Shown here: in pieces, positions 1,244-18,559 of the stretch
How positions within the stretch are numbered: the first letter of the stretch is position 1
How the letters are laid out: each line of letters begins with the position of its first letter
IMG/VR virus record: IMGVR_UViG_3300025896_000233
Span: 1 to 20,343 of that record
Length of the DNA stretch: 20,343 bases
Origin: a virus
Direction: 5' to 3' (one strand)
Made by a program: the position numbers and the translations under genes
The notes under the pieces: model-generated
Told to the model about the DNA's origin: nothing
The model's database searches: none
The model's input: only the letters and a program-made list of their open reading frames with translations

Positions 1244-2575
1244 ATGGAAAACAGTACTACACAAGTACACAAATTCAGTGTACAAATCTCAACAATTTTA
1301 GGAAACGTAGAAAAAACATTAATTTTTGAACGTATAGCGTTCATTCTTGACATGAATAAAAATAAAGAAGAATGTAAAGATGAAAATGGAGTAATATGGT
1401 CTTATTCTACTTTAGATGATTTTCATGAAATGTATAGTTATATCAATAGAACAAAAATTAAAAATATAGTTGATGAACTTGAAAAAATGGGGTTAATCAT
1501 TTTAAGAAACGATAACAAAATAAAGTTTAAAAAGACATTTTCTTTCTCATTATCTCAAAAAGGAACAAGATTATTAGAAATTAATTCAGATAAAAGACAT
1601 CCAATTAATATAGAAATAGCTAAATCTTTAGGATTGAATGATTCTATTTTATTTAATCATATACAACTTTGGATTTGTAACAATATCAAATCAAAAACTA
1701 ATCTTCGTGAAGACAAATATTGGACATTTGATTCTATAGATAAATTACATATCAAATTTCCTTATTTAACAAGAAACGAAATCAAATTATCTTTAAAAAG
1801 ACTAGAAACAAAAGAACTTATTTTATCTAGTAGTTTCAATACACATAAGTATGACAAGACTAAATGGTACACATTAACAGAAAAGGGAGTAGTACTTGCA
1901 AATCAAAAAGTCTTAGGCTTTTATGAAAAAGTCTTAGGCTTTTATGAAAAAGTCTTAGGCTTTTATGAAAAAGTCCAACCTATACCAGATATAGAACAAG
2001 ATAAAGAAACAATAATAGAAGAAAAAAATAGAACCTTAAGGAATAAGGAGCAGGTGCAAGCTATTTTTGATATTGAAAACATTTCTACTCAAGAATCTAC
2101 TTCATTCGATAATCAACAAGTGAAACTTGAAACACAAGAATCTACTTTACAGGATAATAAACAAGATATTGAAGATTGGTTTAGTAATATAGAAAAACTA
2201 GAATCTACTTCATTCGATAATCAACAAGTGAAACTTGAAACACAAGAATCTACTTTACAGGATAATAAACAAGTTAAACTTGAAGGTGCAAAACCTAAAG
2301 AATATATTGATAAGAATGGTAATTCTTTCTATAAACTTAGGTTGCATGTTTACAATCCATTTGAAAAACTTGATAGTGAAGGAAATGTTTATTTACCTAT
2401 TCATGAATCGCCTAATGTTAGAAAAATAGATAACTATACTAAAGACATAATGCATAACTGGAGAATTATTTACGGTAAAGATTTCTATCAAAAAAACGAT
2501 AGAACAATCAAGCAAGTTGCAATTGAAGTTGAACTCGATAATGAAAGCTTACATTTTACTGAATTTTATAGTTAA
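1244..2575 (+). CDS. Winged-helix replication-initiator-like protein with internal DNA repeats
   Basis: The 443-residue protein appears to have two winged-helix modules. Residues about 24-112 include a WSYSTLDDFHEMYSYINRTKIKN segment (given here only as landmarks around 52-73). Residues about 120-215 contain YWTFDSI, FPYLTRNEIKLSLKRLE and KWYTLTEKG. The second pattern is common in phage replication or replisome-organiser proteins. Residues 222-242 are three tandem copies of KVLGFYE, each encoded by an identical 21-bp unit. Residues about 284-355 carry repeated ESTxxDNxQ segments from a 74-bp DNA duplication. The rest of the middle is polar and probably unstructured. The C-terminal 90 residues form a distinct domain I do not recognise. 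The position beside a divergent RHH gene, and DNA repeats in mid-gene, recall lambda O, whose origin lies inside its coding sequence. A role in replication initiation is inferred; a transcriptional regulator is the alternative. Confidence 0.65.
   Translation: MENSTTQVHKFSVQISTILGNVEKTLIFERIAFILDMNKNKEECKDENGVIWSYSTLDDFHEMYSYINRTKIKNIVDELEKMGLIILRNDNKIKFKKTFSFSLSQKGTRLLEINSDKRHPINIEIAKSLGLNDSILFNHIQLWICNNIKSKTNLREDKYWTFDSIDKLHIKFPYLTRNEIKLSLKRLETKELILSSSFNTHKYDKTKWYTLTEKGVVLANQKVLGFYEKVLGFYEKVLGFYEKVQPIPDIEQDKETIIEEKNRTLRNKEQVQAIFDIENISTQESTSFDNQQVKLETQESTLQDNKQDIEDWFSNIEKLESTSFDNQQVKLETQESTLQDNKQVKLEGAKPKEYIDKNGNSFYKLRLHVYNPFEKLDSEGNVYLPIHESPNVRKIDNYTKDIMHNWRIIYGKDFYQKNDRTIKQVAIEVELDNESLHFTEFYS
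1905..1975 (+). repeat. Three 21-bp tandem repeats (iteron-like)
   Basis: Three nucleotide-identical 21-bp units, plus the first 8 bases of a fourth, lie in frame in the initiator gene. Each unit contains AAAAGTCTTAGGCTTTT, a 17-bp imperfect palindrome with a single mismatched pair (positions 6 and 12) around its centre. The 21-bp period is two helical turns. An AT-rich stretch follows at about 1985-2040. This combination fits an iteron set at a replication origin, though no copy has been tested. Confidence 0.6.
2092..2273 (+). repeat. 74-bp direct repeat, two exact copies
   Basis: Positions 2092-2165 and 2200-2273 are identical over 74 bp, offset by 108 bp (36 codons). Each copy itself contains two related segments beginning GAATCTACTT, so four ESTxxDNxQ peptide units result. 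Perfect identity, with no silent changes, indicates a recent duplication or DNA-level constraint. Confidence 0.9.
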
Positions 2576-4933: not shown

Positions 4934-5293
4934 ATGCCATTCATAAAAGGTCAAAGTGGTTATCCAGCTGGTAGAGCAAAGGGATCACTTAATAAAGATA
5001 CAAAAGCAATTCGTGCAGCTTATCAAGCACTGATAGAGAACAATCTTCCATTGATACAAGGTTGGATAAATGAAGTCGCAAAACAAGATAAGAACAAAGC
5101 CTTTGAAATGTTAATGAAACTGTCTCCGTTTGTTGTACCAAAACTTACAGAAGAACTAGGACAACCAGAGTCAACAATATTCGTTCTTCCAAAGGGTGTA
5201 GACGTTGTTCAGTTCAATAAAGAACAAAATGAGCTTGATTCTGATGAAAACGAACAAGAAAACGAACAAATAGAGCAAAACGACAACAAATAA
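4934..5293 (+). CDS. Putative terminase small subunit
   Basis: 119 residues. The start (FIKGQSGYPAGRAKGSLNKDT) matches the GQSGNPAGRPKGS-type N-terminus of phage proteins encoded just upstream of large terminases. A helical middle follows (residues about 25-75), then a very acidic tail (ENEQENEQIEQ). Small subunits recognise the packaging site and load the large subunit. The stop codon TAATG overlaps the start of the large subunit by one base, so the two are coupled. Motif plus position make small terminase the best call. No structural evidence is available, and members of this family are sometimes annotated only as DUF5681-like. Confidence 0.7.
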   Translation: MPFIKGQSGYPAGRAKGSLNKDTKAIRAAYQALIENNLPLIQGWINEVAKQDKNKAFEMLMKLSPFVVPKLTEELGQPESTIFVLPKGVDVVQFNKEQNELDSDENEQENEQIEQNDNK

Positions 5294-6510
5294 TGAAAGT
5301 ATTCCAGTTTCCTGATGCTTTTGCACCACTTTTTAATGACAAGAACTATTTCATTATTTCTGGTGGTAGAGCAGGCGCAAAATCTTATTCAGTAGCAGCT
5401 TACTTCCTTCTCAAACTATTTCAACCTGAATATTTTAGAGGTGTCATTTGTCGTTATACAGCAACATCAGTCAAGAAGACAATTCTTCAAGACTTTCTCG
5501 ATATAATGAATGATTTTGGTCTTTCTCAATATGCAACTGTTATAGGAAGTGACACTATTCAATGCAACTTTAATGGAAATAAGATTATTTCACATTCTAT
5601 GAAGCTTACAGATAACTCACAACAAGCAAAAGGTAAAGGACTTTCAGGTATAACACACCTCTTGATAGATGAAGCTACAGAAATAAGTACAGAACGAGAA
5701 TACATTAAATTAATTGACTCTATTAGAGCGACAAAAGGAGAACGCAAAATATTCGTAATGTTCAATCCAGAAGCAAAGTCACACTGGATTCATCAAAGAT
5801 GGTTTATCAATGGACGTCCCAACCCTAAATGGAATGAAGATCATGAATTCGTTCATGTTATATATAAAGATAATCCATTCCTCGATAAAAGAAAGGTTAG
5901 AGAATACGATCAAATCAAAGAAAGAGAACCTGAACGTTACAGTCGAGACATGTTAGGTGAATGGCAAGACTTTGTCGAAGGTAAAGTATATGACAATGTG
6001 TCATATGTCTATGAACCAGATCCAGAAAGCACAGTCATTTACGGTCTAGATTTCGGGTTTTCAAACGATCCAGCAGCGCTTGTCAAAATCAATATTAAGG
6101 GAAATCGTGCATGGATGAAAGAACTACTTTACCAGACTGGATATACAAATGATGATATTGTAGATGTACTGAACGAACTGGGAGTCACAAGATCTGACTT
6201 GATTGTAGCAGATTCAGCAGAACCAAAGTCAATAGAAGAGATAAAACGTAAAGGATTTAATGTAAAGGGTGCTATCAAGGGTCCAGATTCGATAAGATCT
6301 GGAATTCAACGGATGCGAGACATGGAACTCTTCGTAGATCCAACTTCAAAGAACTTGATTCATGAAATAGAGAACTATGCATGGAAACTAGGTACAAATA
6401 AACCAATTGATGCATTTAATCACCTTCTCGACTCTGCTAGATATGCAATAACAAGTGATAAACATAAAGTAGAGCAATTTAGGCTATCAGGAATTAGAAG
6501 AAGAGCTTAA
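5293..6510 (+). CDS. terL: Terminase large subunit (packaging ATPase and nuclease)
   Basis: 405 residues with the full two-domain terminase layout. The ATPase part has Walker A SGGRAGAKS (23-31), Walker B LLIDEATE (123-130, D126/E127) and a coupling motif FNPE (157-160). The RNase-H-like nuclease has D253 in GLDFGFS, D307 in IVADSAE and D380 in NHLLDSARYA, the three acidic metal ligands. It drives DNA into the prohead and cuts the concatemer. The length is normal and the gene is intact. It overlaps the small subunit gene by one base. The stop is followed by a small hairpin (6510-6524). Whether packaging is cos or pac cannot be told from this window. Confidence 0.97.
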   Translation: MKVFQFPDAFAPLFNDKNYFIISGGRAGAKSYSVAAYFLLKLFQPEYFRGVICRYTATSVKKTILQDFLDIMNDFGLSQYATVIGSDTIQCNFNGNKIISHSMKLTDNSQQAKGKGLSGITHLLIDEATEISTEREYIKLIDSIRATKGERKIFVMFNPEAKSHWIHQRWFINGRPNPKWNEDHEFVHVIYKDNPFLDKRKVREYDQIKEREPERYSRDMLGEWQDFVEGKVYDNVSYVYEPDPESTVIYGLDFGFSNDPAALVKINIKGNRAWMKELLYQTGYTNDDIVDVLNELGVTRSDLIVADSAEPKSIEEIKRKGFNVKGAIKGPDSIRSGIQRMRDMELFVDPTSKNLIHEIENYAWKLGTNKPIDAFNHLLDSARYAITSDKHKVEQFRLSGIRRRA

Positions 6511-6524
6511 TGACATTTTGTCAT
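6510..6524 (+). other. Short hairpin after terL
   Basis: ATGACA-TTT-TGTCAT is a perfect 6-bp stem with a 3-nt loop starting at the last base of the terL stop codon. There is no T-tract, so it may mark an RNA 3' end or a processing site rather than a full terminator. Confidence 0.4.
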
Positions 6525-6545
6525 ACATAAATTAAACAAACAAAC

Positions 6546-6998
6546 ATGAATCAATTTTATAATGCAATTGAAGTATTAAAACAAAGACTAGAAGCAAACA
6601 CAAATGTCAACACTGTAGTCTTTGGACAAATAGCAAAAGATGTATATAAGAAAAATGTATATCCACTTTGTCATATTAATGCAGTAGATGCGCAATTAGG
6701 AAGTAATGCTGCTTCACTTTTTACATTCGAAATTGCAGCGCTTGACCAACGAGACATATCGAAATCAATTGCAACCGATAAATTCGATGGAAATGACAAT
6801 ATAATAGATAACTTAAACATTACATTTACGATTCTTAATGACTTGATTAGCTACTTGCAACATCAAAACAATGATTTGGGAATAGAACTTGTCAGTGTTA
6901 ACAATGCAAACCCTATCTTGTTCAAAGAATATAACACCCTAGACGGTTGGATTTGTAACATTACAATTTCAGTACCTTCTAATCAAGATGCTTGTTAA
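6546..6998 (+). CDS. Tail terminator-like protein
   Basis: 150 residues. The start MNQFYNAIEVLKQRLEANTN, then VNTVVFGQI and later YNTLDGWICNITISVP, resembles a short protein of Bacteroidota siphophages that I take to be the tail terminator. Related proteins share an opening helix, a VNTVTFG strand and a closing GW strand ending in VP..C. A terminator ring would cap the tail tube and join it to the head. Its neighbour is an HK97 gp10-like gene, the usual partner in connector modules. Assignment is by remembered family resemblance and context, so the exact role is less sure than the virion function. Confidence 0.6.
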   Translation: MNQFYNAIEVLKQRLEANTNVNTVVFGQIAKDVYKKNVYPLCHINAVDAQLGSNAASLFTFEIAALDQRDISKSIATDKFDGNDNIIDNLNITFTILNDLISYLQHQNNDLGIELVSVNNANPILFKEYNTLDGWICNITISVPSNQDAC

Positions 6999-7012
6999 AA
7001 TAAACACCAGAC

Positions 7013-7423
7013 ATGAATCAATGGAAATCAATTAACGAACAACTTACTCTAATTGTTAACGAAATGAAATCACAAGCACCACATAAATCAGGTGCTCTTG
7101 CTAATTCAATAAGTTCTGAACTATTCAAGACAGATTCGGGATTTAAAGTATTCATAAGCATGCTACCCTATGGTGTATTTCAAGATGAAGGTGTAAATGG
7201 AACAGAAGTAAGTAGAGGATCTCGATTCTCATTCTCTGAAAAAAGACCCCCTTCTTATGCATTTCAAGGGAAGTTCTCTTATGCAATTGCTACTTCAATA
7301 TATAAGAAGGGATTCAAAGCACAACCATTCATAGATCCTGCAATGAGGAAACTCGATAATCTAGCAGATGGAATTACAGAAGAACTTTGGCAAAACTTTG
7401 AAGAGGGCATAAATGATATATAA
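7013..7423 (+). CDS. HK97 gp10-like head-tail/tail-joining protein
   Basis: 136 residues. The order SQAPHKSGALANSI, then VFISMLPYGVFQDEGVNG, and near the end FIDPAMRKL is the typical pattern of HK97 gp10-like proteins: an early SGxLxxSI, a YGxFxxEG turn, and a late AxPFIxPA. These proteins act at the head-tail interface or tail completion. It lies 14 nt after the tail terminator-like gene and overlaps the open frame of the tail assembly chaperone by 11 nt. The length fits the family. Confidence 0.8.
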   Translation: MNQWKSINEQLTLIVNEMKSQAPHKSGALANSISSELFKTDSGFKVFISMLPYGVFQDEGVNGTEVSRGSRFSFSEKRPPSYAFQGKFSYAIATSIYKKGFKAQPFIDPAMRKLDNLADGITEELWQNFEEGINDI

Positions 7424-7439
7424 AACAAACGAAACACCC

Positions 7440-8015
7440 ATGAAACTAATCCAAGATATCACAGTCGAACAATACATGAAAATCAAGCTAATCTCTGAAT
7501 CTTATGTCGAGGAACCAGATAAATTGTCATCAGAACTTGTTAAACTAATTCATGGAACACTAAATGTCAAGAAAAGCACTGCAGATGAAACACTAGAACA
7601 ACTTGGTCAACTTCTTCTTGCAAAACATGACTTTGTCAATCGATTCAAATTCGATGGTGTAGAATATGGATTCATTCCTTCTCTAGAAGATATGTCAGTT
7701 GGTGAATTTGTCGACATCGAAGAATATTCAAAAGGAGAAATTCAACTACATAAGCTTCTTGCAATCCTCTATCGTCCCATTACGAAGAAATACGGGAAGA
7801 TGTATGATATTGAACCTTACGAGTCTGCTTCAAAAACAAGCGACATCATGAAGAATGTTTCCTATAAGATTGGAGTTGGTGCACTGCTTTTTTTTTCTCT
7901 TTTAAAGGAACATTTGTTAAGAGATTTAGCTATTTATACGAAGAATCAAGAGATGAAAGTGAAGACTTTACAGAAGAAAGCGGTTTTGCAAGAGAATTCA
8001 GTTGGTATTCAATGA
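7440..8015 (+). CDS. Tail assembly chaperone, short form (lambda gpG-like)
   Basis: 191 residues from ATG 7440, or 200 from ATG 7413, which overlaps the previous stop. I prefer 7440 because MKLIQDITVEQYMKI looks like the family's start and follows an A-rich leader. The body (VDIEEYSKGEIQLHKLLAIL, then YRPITKKYGKMYDIEPYE) resembles tail assembly chaperones of Bacteroidota siphophages. A T9 run at 7888-7896 supplies the heptamer T TTT TTT in frame, where ribosomes can slip by -1 into a longer frame. After the run the 0-frame adds 40 residues. As in lambda gpG/gpGT, the short and long forms would together load the tape measure. Unusually, four or five genes separate it from the tape measure. Confidence 0.75.
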   Translation: MKLIQDITVEQYMKIKLISESYVEEPDKLSSELVKLIHGTLNVKKSTADETLEQLGQLLLAKHDFVNRFKFDGVEYGFIPSLEDMSVGEFVDIEEYSKGEIQLHKLLAILYRPITKKYGKMYDIEPYESASKTSDIMKNVSYKIGVGALLFFSLLKEHLLRDLAIYTKNQEMKVKTLQKKAVLQENSVGIQ

Positions 8016-8161
8016 TTTATGCAGCTGCAAATGAAGACTTTACAAAAATCGATACCGTTATAAAAAGTAATGTTTCATCTTTTCTATATTTCATTAACTT
8101 CTATAAAAGAAAACAACAACTTGAGTCAGCGAGAATCGAAAGATCTAGAAACAACCACTGA
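7895..8161 (+). CDS. Frameshift extension of the tail assembly chaperone (gpT-like part)
   Basis: This frame is open from 7868 to the TGA at 8159-8161. It has no ATG before about 8012 but clearly reads as protein: FVKRFSYLYEESRDESEDF, then FAREFSWYSMIYAAANEDF and a charged end. It is entered by a -1 slip at the T9 run, giving 88 more residues and a fusion of about 249 residues (from 7413) or 240 (from 7440). The WYSMIYA...DFTKID segment resembles the gpT-like half of other chaperones. Without the shift, the interval 8016-8190 would be an unexplained gap. A sequencing or mutational indel in the T run would give the same picture but would be less expected in this gene. Confidence 0.75.
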   Translation, partial: FSFKGTFVKRFSYLYEESRDESEDFTEESGFAREFSWYSMIYAAANEDFTKIDTVIKSNVSSFLYFINFYKRKQQLESARIERSRNNH

Positions 8162-8190
8162 TAAATAAGTTATTTAAAAAATAATTACAA

Positions 8191-9288
8191 ATGCAAGATA
8201 TAAGAGTAAGGAGCCCTTTTATTGTACGAAATACGTTAACAAACTTTCCATTTGATACCAGCACATTTGAAATTAGAGCGTGGACTGGTGGGTTGACTGC
8301 TGATTATCCAGTTAGCCCTACATACACTAAAACAAAACAGAAGATAAACTCTCTTCAAACGCAAGTTTACGTAAATGCTTCTAATCTTTTAAAAGAGGAT
8401 TTAGAAGCAAACCCAACTTTATACGTTGCTCCTGGGTCTACAGTTGCAGCACAAACATACTTTATTGGCGATAAAGAGTCTAAATTTTGTGAAATTAAAC
8501 AAACATGGACAAATGGAGCAACTGGAAGCACTGGAGCAACCCAAACAGATTCATTTTTCATTTTAGATGGATGGATAGATAGCACAGAGAGTCAAGGAGA
8601 CGTCGACGTCTTGTTATCGAGTGACTCTAACCATATATATAGACAGTTTGCAACTGGTGCTACTTCAAGAATTCACTTTAAAAAAGATAACTTATCTTCA
8701 ATATCAGTGACAGACTCTTATGGAACATCTACTATAAGCCTTACCGGTAGTTCTACTATATCTAATCAATATATTCAAAGTATAGTTACTCCTACAACAG
8801 AACCTTCTTCACTTATAACGTTTACGTATTCCTCACCTACTAGATCCTACTATGTACATGTAAATTGTACCGATAATTGCATTTACGATAACTGGAATGT
8901 AATTTTTAAAAATAAATTTGGTGTTCTTGAAACAATATCGTTTAATAAGAAGCATTCATCATCTATTTCAATAACAAATCAAGATTATAAAAGATCGCTA
9001 GTCGATTATAATGGAGATTTTGACAATACTTTACATATTTCTAAACAATTTAATGTTGTTGGGTTAGAGGAAGTAACTTTAAACACGGATTATCTTCCAG
9101 AATACATGAATCAGACTATAAAAGAACTTTTATTATCGGAACAGATATGGGCATATGTAAAAGGTATTCTTATTCCACTTACTCTATCAGACAAATCATG
9201 GACAAAGAAAACAAGACTAAACGATAAATTAATTCAATACACAATGAAGTTTAAGTATAGTCAAGAGTCAATAAATAATATAATTTAA
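8191..9288 (+). CDS. Tail/baseplate structural protein, unassigned
   Basis: 365 residues, rich in Ser, Thr, Ile and aromatic residues, so mostly beta. The C-terminal third (residues about 275-365; FNVVGLEEVTLNTDYLPEYM, then LLLSEQIWAYVKGILIPLTL and TLSDKSWTKKTRLNDKLIQY) is a conserved-looking module I associate with Bacteroidota phage tail proteins. It contains a low-complexity NGATGSTGATQT near 110. Its stop overlaps the next gene's start by one base (TAATG). It lies between the tail assembly chaperone and the tape measure, a tail region, which suggests a distal-tail or baseplate part. The exact role is unknown. Confidence 0.65.
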   Translation: MQDIRVRSPFIVRNTLTNFPFDTSTFEIRAWTGGLTADYPVSPTYTKTKQKINSLQTQVYVNASNLLKEDLEANPTLYVAPGSTVAAQTYFIGDKESKFCEIKQTWTNGATGSTGATQTDSFFILDGWIDSTESQGDVDVLLSSDSNHIYRQFATGATSRIHFKKDNLSSISVTDSYGTSTISLTGSSTISNQYIQSIVTPTTEPSSLITFTYSSPTRSYYVHVNCTDNCIYDNWNVIFKNKFGVLETISFNKKHSSSISITNQDYKRSLVDYNGDFDNTLHISKQFNVVGLEEVTLNTDYLPEYMNQTIKELLLSEQIWAYVKGILIPLTLSDKSWTKKTRLNDKLIQYTMKFKYSQESINNII

Positions 9289-11663
9289 TGAAAGTAACTA
9301 TATATATTGGTGAAGACAATAGAAAAGTAGATTTGTTTAACGATGAAAACATTACATTGACTGTAAAAAGCGGTGATGTTGAAAAGCTAAGTAGTGTGTT
9401 CACAGATTTTTCTAATACATTTACTATTCCAGCGACACCTAATAATAATGCTATCTTTGAACATTATTATGATTTCGATATTGATGGCACATTCAATGCA
9501 GCTACAAGAATTGTTAGCTTTATTGAACTAGACTCTTTTCAATTTAAGTCTGGAAAGATTCAATTAGAATCCGTGTCTCTAAAGAATTCAAAACCAATCA
9601 GTTATAAAATTACATTTTACGGTAGTCTTACTCAATTGACTGATTTATTTGGAAATGACTCTTTACAGGATTTAACGGGACTAACAGCGCTTGATTACAC
9701 TTATAATGAAACTAATTTTTATCGTACTTTAAACGATAGCACATTCTTAAACGGAGATGTCATATGTCCACTTATTCAATTTTCAAATAAAAATAATGTT
9801 AGAGATTGGAATTTCTTATCTGGTGATGTTTATGATGTTACGACTACAACTGCCGCCATAAAAGATTATGAGTTAAGACCAGCAATAAGACTAGAAAGCA
9901 TAATAGAACAAATAGAAGCTAAATATGGGTTAGAATTTTCTAGAGATTTCTTTGGAAGTGCTACTTTTAAGAATTTATTTATGACGTTAAATAATATAAC
10001 TGATGATTTCTATAATAACCCAATTGTGGGAGAACAGACCCGGGTACTAGACATTACTTCTAAGATAGGAACAGAAGTTCCTTGGGTTGGAACTAACGTC
10101 AGTACCTATTATTTCGATATAGATGAAGCTAATGATACTGTTAAACTTGCTATCGGAAATAATTACCACGGAAATAATTACCCTACGACAATATATTCTG
10201 TTTCACCTACAATAATACCAGAAGCTGGATATACAACAGTTCCATATAGAGTAGATATTTATATAAACAATATTCTTTATTACACAGGTTCTACTGTAAC
10301 CGGGTCATATACTGTTCCTGATAAGGGAATTACTAGTTTGTATGATTCTGTACAATTTAAAATAAGCTCAACTCAAAATCTTAGATATAAAACGACATTC
10401 ACATATACCATAAATAAACATGATGCTAAAGAAAATACTTGGTACCATATACAAGTCGTTCAACCAGAGATAAATTTCTTATCTCAAAGAACTATTGAAA
10501 TCAATAAACATATTCATTCCATTAAAATCATAGATTTTATAAGTGGGTTGATGAAAATGTTTAAACTTGTGATTAGACCATTTTCATCAACCTCTTTCTA
10601 CGTAGACACAATGAATAGATGGTATGGAAAAGGAAAAGTTATAGACCTTACTAAATATGTAGATATAAGCTCATTGGAAGTGAGCAGACCAACAGTCTAT
10701 AAAACACTTATATTCAAATATCAAAACAGTGAAAATATTCTAAACAAGAAGTTTAGAGAAGAATTAAATGACCCTACTAATAAAGAAATTGGATATGGAG
10801 ATTTAAAAGCTGAAATTAATTATATAGATAACAAAGAAGAACTTAAAATAGAACTTCCATTTGAGAATATGTTATTTGAAAGATTTGGTGCGCCTGGAAG
10901 CTCTTCATTTATTACAATAGGACAATGTATAACAAGCTCAGATGGAGGTATAACATTCTCACAAAATAAGTCGAAACCTATCATATTTTACAATAACGGG
11001 CTTGTACCTGAATATGTCAATCCAGTTTATTTTGAATTTGATGGTGCTGGTGCTACTTCACAGGAATACGTGTATTCAGCTAATGTTTCTAATAATATTT
11101 TACAAACTCAAGTTACTGACTCTTTAAATTTTAAGGCAGAATTCGATCCGTTTTTTACACCTAATATAGTTGAATCAACTTTATACGATAACTACTGGAG
11201 AGACTGGATAGAGACAATATACGATAGAAAACAAAGAAAAGTAGCATTAACTGCATGGTTGCCTCCGAGATTAATACGAGAACTTTCTTTAAATGATAGA
11301 ATAGTTATCAATGGAAATAGATGGAAGATTGACGATTATACTATTAACCTTGTTTCTGGTGAAGTCAAGTTCAACTTGTTGAAAGATATTTATGGATTTG
11401 GTGCTACACCACCTGAAATAGGAAAACCCGATTATTTATTTACAAAGGCAAAACAGTCAGCAGATGTATATTTGAATATTTCATCACCTTATTCAGTTTC
11501 TCTTATTAACACTGGAGATGGAACATCTTGGTTAACCTATACACTATATGATGATAGAATAACTTTTACCGTTGTACATAATACTGGGTCAACAAGAATT
11601 ATGAAAATACGGTTTACAATATTAGGTGTAGACACTGATATAACAATATTTCAAGCTAGCTAA
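9288..11663 (+). CDS. Large tail/baseplate protein with a C-terminal BACON-like domain
   Basis: 791 residues. The N-terminal 130 residues (KLSSVFTDFSNTFTIPATPN, NNAIFEHYYDFDIDG, then KSGKIQLESVSLKN) match a tail-associated protein I know from many Bacteroidota phages. The remaining middle is long and beta-rich. It includes an SWxx-type DYTINLVSGEVKFNLLKDI segment near 683-703, as in tail-hub or Dit-like assemblies. Residues about 716-791 look like a BACON-type immunoglobulin-like domain: W, then a turn, N-x-G-x-x-R, ending DITIFQAS. BACON domains occur in Bacteroidota enzymes and phage tail proteins and may bind glycans. The gene is intact and coupled to both neighbours by one-base overlaps. 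Adhesion to the cell surface is an inference. Confidence 0.7.
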   Translation: MKVTIYIGEDNRKVDLFNDENITLTVKSGDVEKLSSVFTDFSNTFTIPATPNNNAIFEHYYDFDIDGTFNAATRIVSFIELDSFQFKSGKIQLESVSLKNSKPISYKITFYGSLTQLTDLFGNDSLQDLTGLTALDYTYNETNFYRTLNDSTFLNGDVICPLIQFSNKNNVRDWNFLSGDVYDVTTTTAAIKDYELRPAIRLESIIEQIEAKYGLEFSRDFFGSATFKNLFMTLNNITDDFYNNPIVGEQTRVLDITSKIGTEVPWVGTNVSTYYFDIDEANDTVKLAIGNNYHGNNYPTTIYSVSPTIIPEAGYTTVPYRVDIYINNILYYTGSTVTGSYTVPDKGITSLYDSVQFKISSTQNLRYKTTFTYTINKHDAKENTWYHIQVVQPEINFLSQRTIEINKHIHSIKIIDFISGLMKMFKLVIRPFSSTSFYVDTMNRWYGKGKVIDLTKYVDISSLEVSRPTVYKTLIFKYQNSENILNKKFREELNDPTNKEIGYGDLKAEINYIDNKEELKIELPFENMLFERFGAPGSSSFITIGQCITSSDGGITFSQNKSKPIIFYNNGLVPEYVNPVYFEFDGAGATSQEYVYSANVSNNILQTQVTDSLNFKAEFDPFFTPNIVESTLYDNYWRDWIETIYDRKQRKVALTAWLPPRLIRELSLNDRIVINGNRWKIDDYTINLVSGEVKFNLLKDIYGFGATPPEIGKPDYLFTKAKQSADVYLNISSPYSVSLINTGDGTSWLTYTLYDDRITFTVVHNTGSTRIMKIRFTILGVDTDITIFQAS

Positions 11664-11773
11664 TGGAAATAAGAAAATATTACAAAGGTAAAGTAAACGT
11701 TTCCAACTCGACAGTTGGAACAAATGCAGCTACTGTAAACAGTTTAAGTTCGAGATGTGTGGTTTTAAGATAG
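11663..11773 (+). CDS. Short ORF, probably the first part of a frameshifted gene
   Basis: Thirty-six codons starting at an ATG that overlaps the previous stop (TAATG), the same coupling as at the neighbouring genes, which makes this the likely true start. It reads MEIRKYYKGKVNVSNSTVG and then NAATVNSLSSRCVVLR before a TAG. The downstream frame is -1 relative to it and overlaps it by 19 nt. A single shift near 11755-11770 would join the two into one protein of about 150 residues. Either two coupled proteins or a broken or programmed frameshift is possible. Confidence 0.5.
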   Translation: MEIRKYYKGKVNVSNSTVGTNAATVNSLSSRCVVLR

Positions 11774-12120
11774 AAACATTATCGCCTTGTGATGTTTTAC
11801 AATTAGGATATACATATAAACACGAAGAATATATAAGTGGCGAATGGGTTGTCCAGGAAGAAGAAACCGCGAATCTAGAAAATATAATTTCTAGTAATAG
11901 AATATATGGAGGTATTAAATTAGCTGGAAACATGATTATTGCTGATTATTGTGTGTCACAACCACATATTATGAAATTGGGACCAGATACAATAAGAATA
12001 TGGCATAAACTAGGAACTTCTAATATAATAAGCGATACAAATCGAATAGAAAATATAAACAGTGAAACATTAGATATGAAAATATTTGATGGACAATATT
12101 TTAATTTAATGACATACTAA
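11755..12120 (+). CDS. Unknown protein, probably the continuation of the ORF at 11663
   Basis: 121 residues from ATG 11755, mostly beta in character (KHEEYISGEWVVQEEE, then NRIYGGIKLAGNMI and IRIWHKLGTSN). No family is recognised. The nominal start lies inside the previous ORF and has no A-rich leader, unlike its neighbours. The open frame extends upstream to 11692 without an ATG, but the extra residues do not look coding. The slip region reads GGTTTTAAG, which is not a classical X XXY YYZ heptamer. I therefore favour translational re-initiation at the stop, or a true indel, over programmed slippage. It sits between the large tail protein and the tape measure, so a tail role is likely. Confidence 0.65.
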   Translation: MCGFKIETLSPCDVLQLGYTYKHEEYISGEWVVQEEETANLENIISSNRIYGGIKLAGNMIIADYCVSQPHIMKLGPDTIRIWHKLGTSNIISDTNRIENINSETLDMKIFDGQYFNLMTY

Positions 12121-12122
12121 TA

Positions 12123-12251
12123 ATGCAAGAAATTTACCAAATACTGCTTCTTGTCAAGAATTCAGACTCTGAGCTTGTCAAGATAGCAAAAGGGAAGTAT
12201 AAGATTCCTACTAATAGAATAAAAAGACTAATTAAAAAATGGCAGATGTAA
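12123..12251 (+). CDS. Possible 42-residue basic protein before the tape measure
   Basis: A 42-codon ORF starting two nt after the preceding stop and ending 13 nt inside the tape measure gene. It reads MQEIYQILLLVKNSDSELVK and then a basic end with KRLIKKWQM. Its tight spacing and balanced composition make it a plausible small protein, perhaps a tail-assembly accessory factor. No family is recognised, and it could be spurious. Confidence 0.45.
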   Translation: MQEIYQILLLVKNSDSELVKIAKGKYKIPTNRIKRLIKKWQM

Positions 12252-14200
12252 AAAAGACCGTAGAGATTGACGTACAGGTAAAAGGAGAAGGGGCACTAAC
12301 TGAAGTCACACAATCTACGAAAATGTTAGGTGATGCTAGCTCTGGTGCCGGTGGTAAATTAGGAATGTTTAGTGGAGCTCTAGAAAAACTAGCTCCTGGA
12401 CTTTCAAGTGCTACATCTAGTTCGCTTTCATTCGGTAAATCTCTATGGGCACTTGTTGCAAATCCAATCGGGGTTATTATAACTGGAATTGTAGCAGGTT
12501 TTACATTACTATATAAAGCTTTTACAGCAACTGCAGATGGTGCTGACAAAATAAGCTTTATATTTGAGGGAGTTAGTAAAGCAGTAGAATCTTTATTTGG
12601 AAGCATACTTGAATTTGCTAGCGGGTTAGCTGCAGTTTTATCGGGTGATGTTATTAGTGGTTTAAGCAAGATGAAAAATGCTGTCGTTAATGCAGGCGGT
12701 GGTATGGTAGATGCTGCTAAAGCTGGTTATGCCATGGCAGAGTCACTAGATAATATTGAAGATAGATTAAAAGAATTAGAAGTTACACAATCGAAAAACA
12801 ATTCTCTCTTAAAGAAATCTAGAGAACTTATAAATGATGAAAATGCAACGTATGCAGACAAGAAGAAAGCAATTGCAGAAATACGTAAAGTGGAAGCAGA
12901 GTATGCAAAAGAACAAGAAGCTCTTTTAGCTGCTAGAGTTGCAATTTTACAAGCAGATTACGATATTGCAGCAAAAAGAGGAAACTTGAGCCAAAAACAA
13001 ATAGACGATTTACAAAAAGCTCAAATAGAACTTAATAAATCTGTAGAAGAAAATACTGGTAAGAGAATAGCTATAAATAAACAAGAGTTAAAGGCTGATA
13101 AAGATAACGAGGCGGCAATTAAAGAAGAAGCAGATAAAAGAAAGGAATTAAAGAAGAAAAGAGATGACGAAGCTGCAGCTGCTCAAAAAATAAGAGATGA
13201 CGAAGAAAAAAAGAGACTTAAACTTAGAGGTGATTTCATTAATACAGCTGCAATCACTGAATTAAAAAACGAATTCGATAGAAATGATGAAAAGATAAGA
13301 CAAGATAAACAAGCCAAAGCTCAAGAAATAGATAGTTTAAAAATATCTAATGAACAGAAGAAAGAACTTCTTAGATTATTAGATAAACAAGTAGATGCTC
13401 AATATGATGCTAACAATGAAGCTCGTAAAAAGAAGAAAGCAGAAGATAATGCAAAGGAACAAGATGCAGAACAAAAGAAACAAGATGCTATTTTAGCTAA
13501 ATTTATAAAACGTCTTGATGAACAACAGAAGAAAAAACAAGATAGAATAGCACAACAACCAGAACTTGCTCGTGAAGCTGAACTTAATGCTATGAGTGAA
13601 TATGACAGGGAATTGTCACTATTAGAAGAAACATATATAAAGAAATTAGAGATAGCAGCAGGCAATGAAGCATTAATTTTTGCTCTTAATAGAGATTGGG
13701 GTGCTAAAAAACTTAAATTAAAGCAATCTGAAAAGAAAGAAGAATTGAATGCATATATGAGTGCAGCAGGTTCTATTGCTGAGATTGTAGGAAAAGAAAC
13801 ATTAGCTGGTAAAGCTATAGCTATAGCTCAGGCAACAATAAATACATATACTGCTGCAGCCCAAGTTTTTGCTAGACCTACACCAGGTATCGCACCTGTT
13901 TCATTAGCTGTTAAGATAGCTTCAATGGCTGCTGCATTAGCAGCCGGTTTTGCAACCGTTAAAGGAATCGTTGCGACCAAAGTTCCAGGTGGTGGAGGTG
14001 GTAGTGGGTCAGGAGGAGGTGAAGCAGTAGCTCCTCCTGCAGCATCTTTTAATATTGTAGGTGCTTCTACAAACAATCAATTAGCATCAAGCATTGCAGG
14101 TTCACAAGGAACACCAATTAATGCATACGTTGTTGGATCTCATGTGACATCTCAACAATCACTTGATAGACAAAGAATAAACAACGCTACATTCATATAG
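12239..14200 (+). CDS. Tape measure protein
   Basis: 653 residues. The N-terminus is a short beta-like VEIDVQVKGEGALTEV. Residues about 68-97 form a hydrophobic helix (LWALVANPIGVIITGIVAGF), a pattern seen in many tape measures. Residues about 165-500 are long charged helices rich in Lys, Glu and Ala, a coiled-coil rod. A second hydrophobic Ala/Gly stretch is near 520-580 (GSIAEIVGKETLAGKAIAIA), followed by a poly-Gly linker and a short tail. The rod sets tail length: 653 residues at roughly 1.5 angstrom each suggests a tail near 100 nm, shorter than lambda's. It overlaps the 42-codon ORF by 13 nt and is followed by the head genes rather than more tail genes. Confidence 0.9.
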   Translation: MADVKKTVEIDVQVKGEGALTEVTQSTKMLGDASSGAGGKLGMFSGALEKLAPGLSSATSSSLSFGKSLWALVANPIGVIITGIVAGFTLLYKAFTATADGADKISFIFEGVSKAVESLFGSILEFASGLAAVLSGDVISGLSKMKNAVVNAGGGMVDAAKAGYAMAESLDNIEDRLKELEVTQSKNNSLLKKSRELINDENATYADKKKAIAEIRKVEAEYAKEQEALLAARVAILQADYDIAAKRGNLSQKQIDDLQKAQIELNKSVEENTGKRIAINKQELKADKDNEAAIKEEADKRKELKKKRDDEAAAAQKIRDDEEKKRLKLRGDFINTAAITELKNEFDRNDEKIRQDKQAKAQEIDSLKISNEQKKELLRLLDKQVDAQYDANNEARKKKKAEDNAKEQDAEQKKQDAILAKFIKRLDEQQKKKQDRIAQQPELAREAELNAMSEYDRELSLLEETYIKKLEIAAGNEALIFALNRDWGAKKLKLKQSEKKEELNAYMSAAGSIAEIVGKETLAGKAIAIAQATINTYTAAAQVFARPTPGIAPVSLAVKIASMAAALAAGFATVKGIVATKVPGGGGGSGSGGGEAVAPPAASFNIVGASTNNQLASSIAGSQGTPINAYVVGSHVTSQQSLDRQRINNATFI

Positions 14201-14204
14201 AAAG

Positions 14205-14246
14205 TTAACAAAACAATAAGCATAAGTTATCTAATTATGGAAAACA
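14205..14246 (+). promoter_or_regulatory. Conserved leader block before the prohead protease, copy 1
   Basis: TTAACA-N11-ATAAGTTATCT followed by ATTA.GGAAAA. The same arrangement, with the same 11-nt spacer, recurs at 17011-17052. It would fit a -35 TTAACA and a -10 TATCTA with 17-nt spacing, but here the -10 ends 3 nt before the ATG, so the transcript would begin at or after the start codon. Its role is uncertain. Confidence 0.4.
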
Positions 14247-15364
14247 ATATCGATGTATACACAGTGGTATTTAATGATGAGTCTGATGGTGAAATCTATG
14301 GAATATCTTTAGTAGACTTTCCTGCAAACAAACGCCAGTTTATTGCACTTTCTGAACAGGAAAAACATGTACAAGTACGCTTAGCAGATGCTGCAAAACA
14401 ACTCTTAACTGGAATTGTCCTAATTCCAGAACAGCAAATCTACAGAGAATTTGAAGATGGAACACCTTTCTTTCTTACATTCTCTGCTCCTGTTATCGAA
14501 AAGTTTTCACAAGATTTCTTAATGAAGGGTTATCAACATAATTCTACATATAATCATCTTGACAAACAATGGCTTTCTGGTACTACAATAGTTGAATCTT
14601 GGATAGTAAACGATCCTAATAATGATAAATTAAATTCATTAGGGTTTAAAGACTTTCCAGCTGGAACATGGGCTATTACAATGAAACTTGACGATTCTAC
14701 GTGGAATGAATATGTTACAAATGGTAAGGTGAAAGGTTTTTCTATAGATAGTATTGTATCGTTTGAAAAATTAAAGAAAAAAAATAAAACACAAATGAAA
14801 AAAGAAGGATTTATACAGACTTTAGTGAAACTCTTGAATAAGGGTAAAGTAGAATGTATAGACGCAGAAACATCTATTGGAATTCTTTCAGCAGATACGT
14901 TTGAAATAGGTTCAGTTGTTGTTGATGCAAATCTTCAACCTCTAGTTAGTTCAACGTTTGATATGGAAGATAATACATATGTAACAGATGAAACTGGTGC
15001 TATCACATCAATTACACCTATCGTTGAAGCTCCTGAAGCTGAAATTGCTCCTGAAATGCCAGCAATGGAAGACATGGGAACAGCAGACGATATTACTGTG
15101 GCTGTAGATGAAATTGTTGCAGTAATTGCTAAACCAGAAGTTGATTTTGAAGCTTTACAAACTAAAATTGATGCTTTACAAGCTGAAGTTGATGCATTAA
15201 AAGCAGAAAAAGATGCATTAGCATCTCAAAACATGAAATTAATGGAAAAAGCTGCATCTTTAAAGATTAGATCTAATTCAAATGTTATCAATTTAGCAAC
15301 TAAAGAAACTAAAGTAGAGTCTAAATTAGACGCAATTTCTAGAATAAACAAACAAGCAAAATAG
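14237..15364 (+). CDS. Prohead protease with C-terminal scaffold (XkdF-like)
   Basis: 375 residues. The first 180 match XkdF-type phage serine proteases: VVFNDESDGEIYGISLVDFP, then KGYQHNSTYNHL (H107 a candidate catalytic histidine), VESWIVNDPNND and GKVKGFSIDS (S169 a candidate nucleophile). The rest is acidic and Pro-rich, then a regular coiled coil at about 305-345 (LQTKIDALQAEVDALKAEK), the usual build of a scaffold fused to the protease. It would shape the capsid shell and then be cut away, releasing peptides as the head matures. The major capsid gene follows directly, 38 nt downstream. Confidence 0.88.
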   Translation: MENNIDVYTVVFNDESDGEIYGISLVDFPANKRQFIALSEQEKHVQVRLADAAKQLLTGIVLIPEQQIYREFEDGTPFFLTFSAPVIEKFSQDFLMKGYQHNSTYNHLDKQWLSGTTIVESWIVNDPNNDKLNSLGFKDFPAGTWAITMKLDDSTWNEYVTNGKVKGFSIDSIVSFEKLKKKNKTQMKKEGFIQTLVKLLNKGKVECIDAETSIGILSADTFEIGSVVVDANLQPLVSSTFDMEDNTYVTDETGAITSITPIVEAPEAEIAPEMPAMEDMGTADDITVAVDEIVAVIAKPEVDFEALQTKIDALQAEVDALKAEKDALASQNMKLMEKAASLKIRSNSNVINLATKETKVESKLDAISRINKQAK

Positions 15365-15381
15365 AGGAAATAAGCTTCTCT
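15363..15381 (+). other. Hairpin before the capsid gene
   Basis: AGAGGAA (15363-15369) can pair with TTCTCT (15376-15381), leaving one bulged G, around a short loop. It begins one base before the last base of the protease gene's stop codon and resembles the AGAGGAAAT hairpin after the capsid gene. An RNA-processing or attenuator role is possible. Confidence 0.35.
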
Positions 15382-15402
15382 AATAAAAATTATAAAAACA
15401 AA

Positions 15403-16296
15403 ATGGCTACAACTGTAACTGTAAGTTCTCAATTCAATGGTGCATTAGCTGGCGAAGTATTCGTTCAAGCGTTCAAAGCATCAGATACAATCTCTAAGAA
15501 TTGTATCACTGTATTACCTAGTGTAATAGGTTCAGGTTTCTTACCAAAACTTTCTTACTCAGCTTCTATCGCTGCATATTCTTGTGGATTTACTCCATCA
15601 GGAACTGTATCATACACTGATAAAGAAGTTGCTACTAAGAAATATGAAATTAAGCATGAGTTATGTAAGGATGATTTTCATCAAACATTTCAAGCACAAG
15701 CTGCTGGTCTTTTCGCAGCTAACAATGAAATCCCTGCAACTATTCAAGATGCAATTTTACTTGCAATGGTGAATAACATGGGTGAAGCTGTAGATTATCA
15801 AATATGGCAAGGTACTGGTATCACTGGTTCTTTCAATGGATTGCTAGCTCAATTCGTAGCTGACGCTACTGTTGTAGATGTAACTGGTGCTACTGTAACA
15901 AGTTCAAACGTTATTACTGAAATGAATAAAGCATTCGATGCAGTTCCTGATGCAGTAGCTGATGACACTGATTTAGTAATCGCAGTTTCTAAAAACGTTG
16001 CTAAAGCTTATAAAAGGGCAATAGCTGCTCAAGGTTTAAATACCTACAATCAAGACAAAGCTCTTGACTATCTTGGTTATAGAATGGAATCTGTTGGAGG
16101 TTTACCTTCTAACACAATCTGTATCTATAGAGTTAAAAACTTAGGTTTCTTAACTGGTTTAGAAGCTGACATTAATGAAGTTAGAGTAATTGATTTGGAT
16201 GCAACTGATGGTTCTGGTTTAGTTAGAACTAAGATGGTGTTCACAGCAGGTGTTGGTTATTCTTTCGGTTCTGAAATCGTTTATTACAGACCTTAA
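15403..16296 (+). CDS. Major capsid protein
   Basis: 297 residues beginning MATTVTVSSQF. It has the length and style of HK97-fold capsid proteins of Bacteroidota phages: an N-terminal helix region, Ala-rich segments, a long mixed middle with LDYLGYRMESVGGLPSNTIC and a closing GVGYSFGSEIVYYR beta end. It builds the icosahedral shell around the scaffold. The leader (AAAATTATAAAAACAAA) is A-rich, suited to strong initiation in this host group. It follows the protease/scaffold directly, which supports the call, and is flanked by two hairpins. The codon choice seems cleaner than its neighbours, as for a highly expressed gene. Confidence 0.9.
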   Translation: MATTVTVSSQFNGALAGEVFVQAFKASDTISKNCITVLPSVIGSGFLPKLSYSASIAAYSCGFTPSGTVSYTDKEVATKKYEIKHELCKDDFHQTFQAQAAGLFAANNEIPATIQDAILLAMVNNMGEAVDYQIWQGTGITGSFNGLLAQFVADATVVDVTGATVTSSNVITEMNKAFDAVPDAVADDTDLVIAVSKNVAKAYKRAIAAQGLNTYNQDKALDYLGYRMESVGGLPSNTICIYRVKNLGFLTGLEADINEVRVIDLDATDGSGLVRTKMVFTAGVGYSFGSEIVYYRP

Positions 16297-16314
16297 TAAA
16301 CAAATATAAGGGTT

Positions 16315-16334
16315 AGAGGAAATTAATTTCCTCT
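16315..16334 (+). terminator. Perfect palindrome after the capsid gene
   Basis: AGAGGAAATTAATTTCCTCT is a perfect 20-bp palindrome followed by TCCTCTTTTAAATT. It could be a weak intrinsic terminator or an RNA-stabilising hairpin that lets the capsid message be more abundant than downstream genes. Confidence 0.5.
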
Positions 16335-16368
16335 TCCTCTTTTAAATTAAAAAATAAATAAAAACACG

Positions 16369-16923
16369 ATGAGTTGTGATATATCAAAAGGTAAAGCAAT
16401 ATTAGCATGTAAAGATAACGTAGGTGGTTTAAAAGCAATCTACTTAGCTAACTACGATGACTATGGTTTTACTATAAACGCTGGATCTACAGCAGGAAAT
16501 GTCCTGTCTGGCTTAGGTGCATTAGGAGCAACTGGAAGTGAAGTTTATAAATATGAATTAAAGAATACTGGCAATACATTTACTGAAGAGATTACATCAA
16601 ACAGAGATGCTGGAACAACTTCTTTTAAACAATCTTTAAACTTTGTAACATCTAAGCTTTCTGCTGAAATGCATTTTCAGATTAAAATGATGGCATGGGG
16701 ACGTCCAATTATATTCGTAGAATCTAATTCTGGATTAGTTTTCATAATGGGTATGGAAAATGGTTGTGAAGTAACAGGTAAAGCAGAAATACAAGGTGCT
16801 TTAACTGGAATGAACGGTTATACAATGACTGCAACAGCTGAAGAAAAAGACAGTATTTACTACTTAGATTCTACTTCTGTGACTGCTTTAAAAGCATTGG
16901 TTAGTACATCAAATGTAGCATAA
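16369..16923 (+). CDS. Major tail tube protein
   Basis: 184 residues. The start MSCDISKGKAILACKDNVGG, then LKAIYLANYDDYGF, and the later GMENGCEVTGKAEI with GALTGMNGYTMTATAEEKD are typical of the tail tube proteins of Bacteroidota siphophages. It forms the inner tube hexamers along which the tape measure runs. Gly/Thr-rich and intact. It lies between the capsid and portal genes, whereas tail tubes normally follow the connectors. The strong terminator after it isolates it, as expected for an abundant virion protein. Confidence 0.88.
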   Translation: MSCDISKGKAILACKDNVGGLKAIYLANYDDYGFTINAGSTAGNVLSGLGALGATGSEVYKYELKNTGNTFTEEITSNRDAGTTSFKQSLNFVTSKLSAEMHFQIKMMAWGRPIIFVESNSGLVFIMGMENGCEVTGKAEIQGALTGMNGYTMTATAEEKDSIYYLDSTSVTALKALVSTSNVA

Positions 16924-16942
16924 CTTTTTACATATTAAGTAT

Positions 16943-16980
16943 ACAATAGAGTGCGCAAAGTGCTCTATTGTTGTTTTGTT
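16943..16980 (+). terminator. Intrinsic terminator after the tail tube gene
   Basis: ACAATAGAG (16943-16951) pairs perfectly with CTCTATTGT (16963-16971), extendable by T-G, G-T and C-G pairs, leaving loop GCAAA. A T-rich run, TGTTTTGTT, follows. It lies 19 nt after the stop codon. The strongest terminator-like hairpin in the right half of the window. Confidence 0.75.
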
Positions 16981-17010
16981 GACATTGTTTATGCATTGTA
17001 TACGATGTTA

Positions 17011-17052
17011 TTAACATAAAGCAAAAGATAAGTTATCTTATTAAGGAAAAAA
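17011..17052 (+). promoter_or_regulatory. Conserved leader block, copy 2
   Basis: TTAACA-N11-ATAAGTTATCT matches copy 1 at 14205. It contains the dyad AAGATAAGTTATCTT (17026-17040, 7-bp arms, 1-nt centre). Here it is 20-50 nt before the ATG at 17061 and just after a terminator, a good position for a promoter (TTAACA, 17-nt spacer, TATCTT). Confidence 0.5.
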
Positions 17053-17060
17053 CATTACAG

Positions 17061-17456
17061 ATGAGTTTAAAAGTTATAAAAATACATGGTATGATCGAAA
17101 GTACCACTGCGGATACAACATTAATAACCGCGGATAACAGTACAGTAACAGTAGATATTACTAATTCTGGATATACATTAAAAGTTCCTTATCGTTTTTG
17201 GGCTACATCAGTTAATTTAATCCTTTGGAATGAACTAATTGAAGTAGAAACAGTTATTTCTTGTGTTCCAATTGAAGAAAACAACCAAATGAAACTAGAA
17301 TTTGATTATGTGTTTATTGATGGAACTACATTTGAAACGAAAATAGAAAGTGTAGATGGAAAATTGATATGGAGAGGTAAAATTTTAGCAACAACACAAA
17401 CAGATTTACAAAACTTTACGCTGAATCGTACATCTAGTAATATAATTAAAATATAA
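17061..17456 (+). CDS. Unknown virion-module protein
   Basis: 131 residues with a beta pattern throughout (MSLKVIKIHGMIESTTADTT, then KVPYRFWATSVNLILWNE and LIWRGKILATTQTD). No family is recognised and no signal or membrane segment is present. Its TAATG stop/start overlap with the portal gene implies translational coupling, and a promoter-like block precedes it. Possible roles are a head-tail completion protein or a head decoration protein. The position between tail tube and portal is the only clue. Confidence 0.6.
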   Translation: MSLKVIKIHGMIESTTADTTLITADNSTVTVDITNSGYTLKVPYRFWATSVNLILWNELIEVETVISCVPIEENNQMKLEFDYVFIDGTTFETKIESVDGKLIWRGKILATTQTDLQNFTLNRTSSNIIKI

Positions 17457-18559
17457 TGAAGAAAAATAGATTACATGTCGTTAATTTGAATCAATTTGTT
17501 AAAGTTGATATCCAGACTCTATTGACACAATCATCTAAATGGATAACAAACGGAGTAGACAATTCATATTTTACAACTGTAGAGAATGCATATCTTGGAT
17601 CTCCCACGAACCAATCGATAATCGATAACATGTCAAACTATATTCTTGGTGAAGGTATCAAGGATGTAAATGGAACAATCAATATTGAAGATTATCTAAG
17701 TGATGAAGATTTAAGACTAGCAGTTACTGACTTTAAGTTACAAGGGGCTATGTCTTTACAGGTCGTTTACAACCTAGCTGGAAATATAAAGGCACTTTAT
17801 TACATTCCTGTCAAAACATTAGCAGTTGCTAGGCAAGCAGATATCACAGAAGAACCAGAAGGTTTCTATTATTCATTTGATTGGAAATTAAAGACACGCT
17901 TTAAACCAGAATTTTATCCAGCTTTTGGCTATGGAGATAAAACTTGTACAGAAATACTATATATAAAGAGACAAAGCCCTCAACCTATTTTTGCTCTTCC
18001 TGATTGGCAATCTGGTATTCAATATGCACAAACTGAGGAACAATTGAGCAACTATTACATTAGTCATATAAGGAATAATTTTTCCGCTGGTAAAATAGTT
18101 AATATCAATCAAGGAATTCCTTCAAATGACGAAGCACAAGAGGAAGCTGAACTTGCAATAAAATCTCAGTTATCTGGATCGTCAAATGCTGGTGCAATTA
18201 TAATTTCATTTAATGAAAATAAAGAAAATGCAACAACTGTTGAAAATCTTCAAATAACAGACGCATACAATCAGTTTCAATTTCTTTCACAAGAATGTAT
18301 AGAAAAGATAATGCTAGCACACAAGATAAATGATAAAACATTATTCGGGCTTCCAATGGCTAGCGGATTTAGTTCTGTCGCTGAACAAATGATTCAATCT
18401 CTTAAAATTTTATATAGAAGTCAAGTTAATCCAATGAGAAAAATCATCACTAAAGGGTTAGAATGTGCATTTAAGACTATAGACCCGATATGCAAACTTG
18501 AATTTCAAGATTTTGAAGAATTAAAAACACTTCCAAGTGTTAAACCCGGTAATATTTAA
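17456..18559 (+). CDS. Portal protein
   Basis: 367 residues. The N-terminal TVENAYLGSPTNQSIIDNMS followed by NYILGEG is the typical beginning of portals, where the chain crosses the clip region. The middle is mixed, with the IYIKRQSP-type strand (EILYIKRQSPQPIFALPDWQ). Near the end, ECIEKIMLAHKINDKTLFGL with the VAEQMIQSLKILYRS helix matches the portal crown/stem helices that carry the conserved P-x-x-L-x-G type turn. Portals form the dodecamer through which DNA is packaged by TerL. Length is rather short but acceptable. It is unusual that it lies about 11 kb from terL and after the capsid and tail tube genes. Confidence 0.85.
   Translation: MKKNRLHVVNLNQFVKVDIQTLLTQSSKWITNGVDNSYFTTVENAYLGSPTNQSIIDNMSNYILGEGIKDVNGTINIEDYLSDEDLRLAVTDFKLQGAMSLQVVYNLAGNIKALYYIPVKTLAVARQADITEEPEGFYYSFDWKLKTRFKPEFYPAFGYGDKTCTEILYIKRQSPQPIFALPDWQSGIQYAQTEEQLSNYYISHIRNNFSAGKIVNINQGIPSNDEAQEEAELAIKSQLSGSSNAGAIIISFNENKENATTVENLQITDAYNQFQFLSQECIEKIMLAHKINDKTLFGLPMASGFSSVAEQMIQSLKILYRSQVNPMRKIITKGLECAFKTIDPICKLEFQDFEELKTLPSVKPGNI

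Follow-up and report, generated by a model that had tools for sequence, protein, structure and literature searches.

A predicted replication origin embedded in the initiator gene of a tailed-phage fragment, with palindromic iterons and a conserved box

Results

Overall organization of the record

The window analyzed here is the whole IMG/VR entry of 20,343 bases and seems to be a tailed-phage fragment, with terminase, portal and tape measure genes. Searches with the initiator, the terminase, the portal or the whole record found no near relative, and the same held at the DNA level. The virion genes (5293-18559) follow an unusual order: the terminase comes first, next the neck and tail genes with the tape measure among them, and then a protease and a major-capsid-like gene, with the portal last. 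The left edge is occupied by a serine recombinase of the IS607 TnpA-like type on the minus strand (156-746; PF00239, 5e-21; PHROG_6620, 3e-48), with a small minus-strand ORF (790-972) upstream of it and no visible TnpB partner. No Rfam match was found within the window.

The gene at 1244-2575 on the plus strand encodes a replication initiator of 443 residues, which matches the replication initiation protein family PHROG_11233 with an E value of 3.2e-40 and PHROG_6493 with 8.5e-13, and whose relatives carry replication-protein annotations. A perfect hairpin, GAACCAGGGGGTAGCTACCCTGGTTC, is located at 1179-1204 in the leader just 5' of the gene (fold z-score -3.0). Directly 3' of the gene, a long stable hairpin with a T run at 2587-2652 (z-score -4.4) is probably its terminator.

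The initiator contains two fused winged helices

The first winged helix, WH1 (residues ~8-115; 1265-1588, plus strand), was detected with the family profile at 98.3% and an E value of 1.1e-14, and matches homologues with a single winged helix at an E value of ~1e-15. The second, WH2 (residues ~119-222; 1598-1909, plus strand), shares ~24-43% identity with homologues in tblastn, and its recognition helix spans residues 177-189. In the AlphaFold2 model the two domains share the order of their elements, with pLDDT values mostly of 77-91 in WH1 and of 92-98 in WH2, the rest of the model being poor (mean pLDDT of 65.7). A Foldseek search against the PDB returned low-confidence matches to MarR-, GntR- and PadR-like winged helices. 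The profile search and the model thus bear out the winged-helix modules that the first-pass annotation had assigned to this gene, and show two of them.

The window is alone in this fusion among 115 dereplicated loci; in the other 114, the domain is preceded by no more than 57 residues. A fused double winged helix is new here, the other sampled homologues having a single winged helix, and we treat the window as a variant. In several phages (phiLdb, Ld25A and Ceridwen), ORFs of ~105-115 residues that consist of a winged helix only adjoin the initiator (L015:1459-1800, L016:1498-1827 and L012:1992-2306) and are paralogous to its DNA-binding domain; a separate ORF of this kind is a possible source of the fusion.

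The C-terminal part of the initiator (residues ~341-443; 2264-2575, plus strand) has no relative among the 114 homologues compared by blastp (best E value of 0.18). The protein has no match to PF09524 or to a DnaD/DnaB_2-type domain, that is, no recognizable C-terminal helicase-loading domain, which by Pfam is a minority feature, most of 48 family members being without a match. No helicase or loader gene was identified within the 20-kb fragment.

An iteron array, a box and AT-rich repeats inside the gene

Tandem Repeats Finder reports an array at 1905-1975 with a period of 21, 3.4 copies and 100% match. The sequence AAAAGTCTTAGGCTTTT occurs in it at 1906, 1927 and 1948, and forms a 17-bp palindrome with seven of eight arm pairs matched, one T/G mismatch and a central T. 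With up to three mismatches it gives six strand-matches against 0.23 expected, a number reached in none of 100 shuffles. A second dyad, GGCTTTTATGAAAAAGTC, found at 1916, 1937 and 1958, is as palindromic as AAAAGTCTTAGGCTTTT. The dyad centres fall at 1914, 1924.5, 1935, 1945.5, 1956 and 1966.5, that is, in steps of 10.5 bp, and six dyads in such a register occur once in the 20-kb record. A tandem palindrome has a pair of dyads in every period, and the best reading of the array is therefore one of half-sites AAAAAGTC and GGCTTTT alternating in inverted orientation every 10.5 bp. The three identical 21-bp units noticed in the first-pass annotation therefore stand, whereas its view of separate 17-bp palindromes is refined to half-sites. 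The exact 17-bp palindrome gave five single matches in IMG/VR with no initiator beside them, which were taken as chance.

All three units contain the rare codons GGC (4%) and GTC (12%), and codons identical to this extent would arise by chance with a probability of 6e-5. This use agrees with constraint at the DNA level and equally with recent copying. Moreover, a period of 21 bp is divisible by three, and the array of the window taken alone therefore fits a peptide cause as well.

Immediately after the array lies the box CAACCTATACCAGATAT (1976-1992, plus strand), with the core CCTATACCA at 1979-1987, which was recognized as conserved by an IMG/VR scan and by counts among homologues. It runs into four AT-rich 12-bp direct repeats, ACCAGATATAGA, ACAAGATAAAGA, AACAATAATAGA and AGAAAAAAATAG (1984-2031, plus strand), which form a putative DNA-unwinding element; in the position profile of the family CCAGATA recurs at +3, +15 and +27. 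The GC content at 2000-2039 is 20%, and several places of the record are lower still. An AT-rich stretch thus does follow the array, as proposed earlier, but its AT-richness is ordinary for this record. In the Firmicutes members (L207, L213, L214 and L217) and in 80alpha (L073), the AT-rich part consists of ACT/ACA/GAG triplets, for example ATACCAGAGACTACTACAGAGACTACTACAGAGA; these triplets downstream of the array are reminiscent of DnaA-trio elements.

Further downstream, a 74-bp direct repeat (2092-2273, plus strand; copies at 2092-2165 and 2200-2273) with 45-nt sub-repeats is exact, as had been stated. It was also considered as a second origin element and rejected: its steps of 45 and 108 nt are both in frame, and no counterpart was seen in the homologue sequences inspected. 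It is probably an in-frame duplication of the linker rather than a part of the origin.

Repeat position and box sequence are conserved among homologues

Homologues were gathered by protein alone, from 80 IMG/VR loci (of at least 578), 64 loci of bacterial genomes and phage records; dereplication left 104, the window being counted among them. The locus search ran with a subset alignment of 8 sequences, the alignment of 22 sequences being too diverse. In the first phages inspected by eye, palindromic repeats directly follow the winged helix and a shared motif comes next. With repeats defined by a match of at least 13/16 and a spacing of 19-26 bp within 130 nt after the winged helix, 58% of the 104 homologues carry direct repeats there, compared with 1.3% among the 7249 control windows that these loci supplied. 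The spacing is 22 bp in 43 cases, 23 in 8, 21 in 5 and 24 in 4, a few of the 24-bp spacings representing the 12-bp AT-rich repeats and not iterons. Consequently 51 of the 60 arrays are out of the reading frame; in the Staphylococcus and Listeria phages, for instance, the repeats are spaced by 22 and 23 bp and the frame rotates. Since the prevailing spacing of 22 bp breaks the reading frame, the constraint must act on the DNA. Repeats or ATACCA were found in 76 of 96 homologues with an ORF of at least 190 residues; the other 20 full-length homologues fall below both the repeat and the box thresholds, several of them having visibly weaker repeats.

When the family is aligned on ATACC, the mean dyad symmetry peaks at -12.5, -23.5, -34.5, -45.5 and -56.5, in steps of 11 bp, compared with -15.5, -26, -36.5, -47, -57.5 and -68 in the window, in steps of 10.5 bp. 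The dyad-to-box distance is 15.5 bp in the window and 12.5 bp in the family. The window and the family have the same architecture, differing slightly in pitch and by a shift of 3 bp. The first-pass annotation had expected the repeats to stay in place in homologues even when the peptide changes, and indeed their position is kept while the DNA, the peptide and even the frame change.

In 43 of 104 homologues the core CCTATACCA follows the winged helix at a distance of up to 150 nt, whereas it occurs in 2 of 5828 control windows. The box is read mostly in one frame, encoding PIPDI, but ATACC is found in all three frames (56/11/5). The Ile-Pro codons are ATACCA in 53 of 59 cases, against ~12% expected from the codon use of the same ORFs, indicating that the nucleotide sequence of the box is under constraint; this coding is kept even in a GC-rich Chromobacterium prophage. 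In addition, an IMG/VR search by DNA only with the 17-mer CAACCTATACCAGATAT of the window gave 47 loci, 32 of which have the same winged helix just upstream, while the remaining 15 include several groups of unrelated genes. A full-text literature search with the literal string tataccagata returned no paper; the box may still be described, and with no description found we regard it as a new part.

Iterons covary with the recognition helix

Among 70 arrays, iteron similarity tracks winged-helix identity (Mantel r of 0.255, p ~5e-4). Residue 178 (window numbering) shows the strongest association beyond overall identity and is the sole residue to pass individually (family-wise p of 0.024), followed by residues 181, 205, 197, 200 and 179 as candidate specificity residues. 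Six of the top seven residues lie in the recognition helix (177-189, at its start) or in the wing, which make up 23 of 94 columns (p ~7e-4); the grouping into helix and wing was made after the ranks had been seen, and the structure was obtained after the ranks had first been computed.

Discussion

A model of the origin and its alternatives

Based on the layout of the sequence, we propose that 1905-2031 is very probably a tailed-phage replication origin embedded in its own initiator gene in a lambda-like manner. The first-pass annotation had suggested such an origin, with iterons inside the initiator gene bound by its product after the logic of lambda O, and this suggestion is strongly supported by the homologue comparison and by the nucleotide-constrained box. 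Direct results of the computation are the repeats, the assignment to the family, the conservation of the layout, the nucleotide constraint on the homologous origins and the covariation of iterons with the recognition helix. In the proposed mechanism, the winged helices of the initiator would bind the 21-bp palindromic iterons, with the protein stacked on one face of the DNA. The resulting complex might then open the adjacent CCTATACCA box and the 12-bp AT-rich repeats, and the opened complex would bring in the replicative helicase. That the iterons are bound, that the strands open at the box, that the helicase is loaded and that the window copy is active are inferences from this arrangement. 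An inversion of the cumulative GC skew had also been predicted near this region; that prediction is not supported, as the cumulative GC skew reaches a maximum, not a minimum, near 2.4 kb. With such a maximum, and with a fragment as the record, GC skew is unusable as support for the origin.

A more detailed proposal is tentative, and we consider it the less probable outcome when its parts are taken jointly. The CCTATACCAGATA box and the 12-bp repeats may act as a sequence-specific strand-opening element in phage origins of hosts from many phyla, read as single-stranded or melted DNA by the initiator or a helicase partner, in a role like that of the bacterial 13-mers or DnaA-trios. In addition, the initiator may be a covalent double winged helix-turn-helix protein, whose two non-identical domains would read the alternating half-sites AAAAAGTC and AAAAGCC. 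For the host range of the box we relied on the record titles of prophage-bearing genomes and MAGs, in which misassignment is possible.

The array might instead reflect a heptad repeat of the peptide (KVLGFYE x3), recently expanded by slippage within a linker that is flexible or coiled, so that the identity of the units would mark their youth. Their 21 nt equal seven codons in frame, this linker also contains the 74-bp repeat, an in-frame duplication, and another 21-nt tandem array at 15147-15220 (81% matches), which differs from the iterons, encodes a heptad-like stretch. However, homologous arrays are mostly spaced by 22 or 23 bp, which leaves the peptide unrepeated; the array is flanked exactly by the winged helix and the conserved box; and its 10.5-bp dyad register is found nowhere else in the record. 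The rare GGC and GTC codons in every copy also speak against a peptide repeat, though recent copying would give the same. We therefore regard this explanation as very unlikely.

Still less probable is that the array serves as an autoregulatory operator or a roadblock for the initiator while replication starts elsewhere. Self-regulation is frequent among initiators, and judging from the covariation the winged helix would bind the array either way. Against this, the array lies in the middle of the gene, ~660 bp past the start codon, and family arrays usually precede the conserved box and the AT-rich 12-bp repeats, the usual pairing of an origin. A like anatomy also has a replication function in 80alpha (PMC5499656) and in the lambda iterons (PMC7466680). 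A packaging (pac) or recombination site would suit the terminase genes ~3 kb downstream and the serine recombinase ~1.2 kb upstream of the array, but homologous arrays accompany the initiator gene across phages and prophages that are unrelated and differ in the neighbouring genes, making this the least probable of the alternatives and nearly negligible.

Few phage origins have been mapped. The layout of a winged helix, palindromic iterons, the CCTATACCA box and AT-rich 12-bp repeats can be read from sequence, and predicts the origin to within a few tens of bases in many uncharacterized phages and prophages. It also yields pairs of initiators and iterons with testable specificity residues. The conserved box raises the testable question of how such origins open, and the fused double winged helix lends itself to testing whether dimers read the iterons.

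Comparison with known systems

In lambda, the iterons bound by O are imperfect palindromes that lie midway in gene O, beside an AT-rich tract (PMC7466680). Lambda and the window are alike in having palindromic iterons inside the initiator gene and an adjacent AT-rich tract; the likeness is one of layout, the sequences being different. Lambda O matches PF04492 (Phage_rep_O) at 5.7e-36, whereas the window has no match to it, hhalign of the family winged helix against lambda O gave 0.1%, so that no sequence homology was found, and the lambda O gene has no CCTATACCA box. No lambda P-like gene was identified in the window record. The window initiator would thus work like lambda O, yet it is not a detectable member of the lambda O family.

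Staphylococcus phage 80alpha fails to replicate when ORF20 is deleted, and supplying the gene in trans does not complement the deletion. According to the authors, this suggests that the origin is embedded in ORF20, as in SPP1 gene 38 (G38P/oriL) (PMC5499656). We found palindromic repeats in the 80alpha gene, followed by an AT-rich triplet stretch, ACTAATAAT. The C-terminal domain of ORF20, PF09524, is also present in 6 of 48 family members. 80alpha lacks the CCTATACCA box and the window lacks PF09524, and hhalign detected no homology between the N-terminal domain of 80alpha gp20 and the family winged helix. Lambda and 80alpha therefore offer a similar layout with experimental support, neither being shown to be a member of the family of the window.

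The closest counterparts are the PHROG_11233 and PHROG_6493 initiators, such as those of Flavobacterium phage elemoE, Lactobacillus phage phiLdb and Bacteroides phage B124-14. To our knowledge, there are no experiments on the PHROG_11233 initiator family. These initiators share with the window a homologous winged helix and palindromic repeats directly after it and, in most of them, a CCTATACCA-type box with AT-rich 12-bp repeats. The window has the features of the PHROG_11233 type, namely the winged helix, palindromic iterons in the 19-26-bp range after it, and the box with the 12-bp repeats (1979-2031). It differs in its two fused winged helices, in a period of 21 instead of 22 and in the orphan C-terminal part; the single N-terminal winged helix from which it departs is usual in the sample, not defining. 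The arrangement is of a known kind, to which the widely shared box and the doubled winged helix add new parts.
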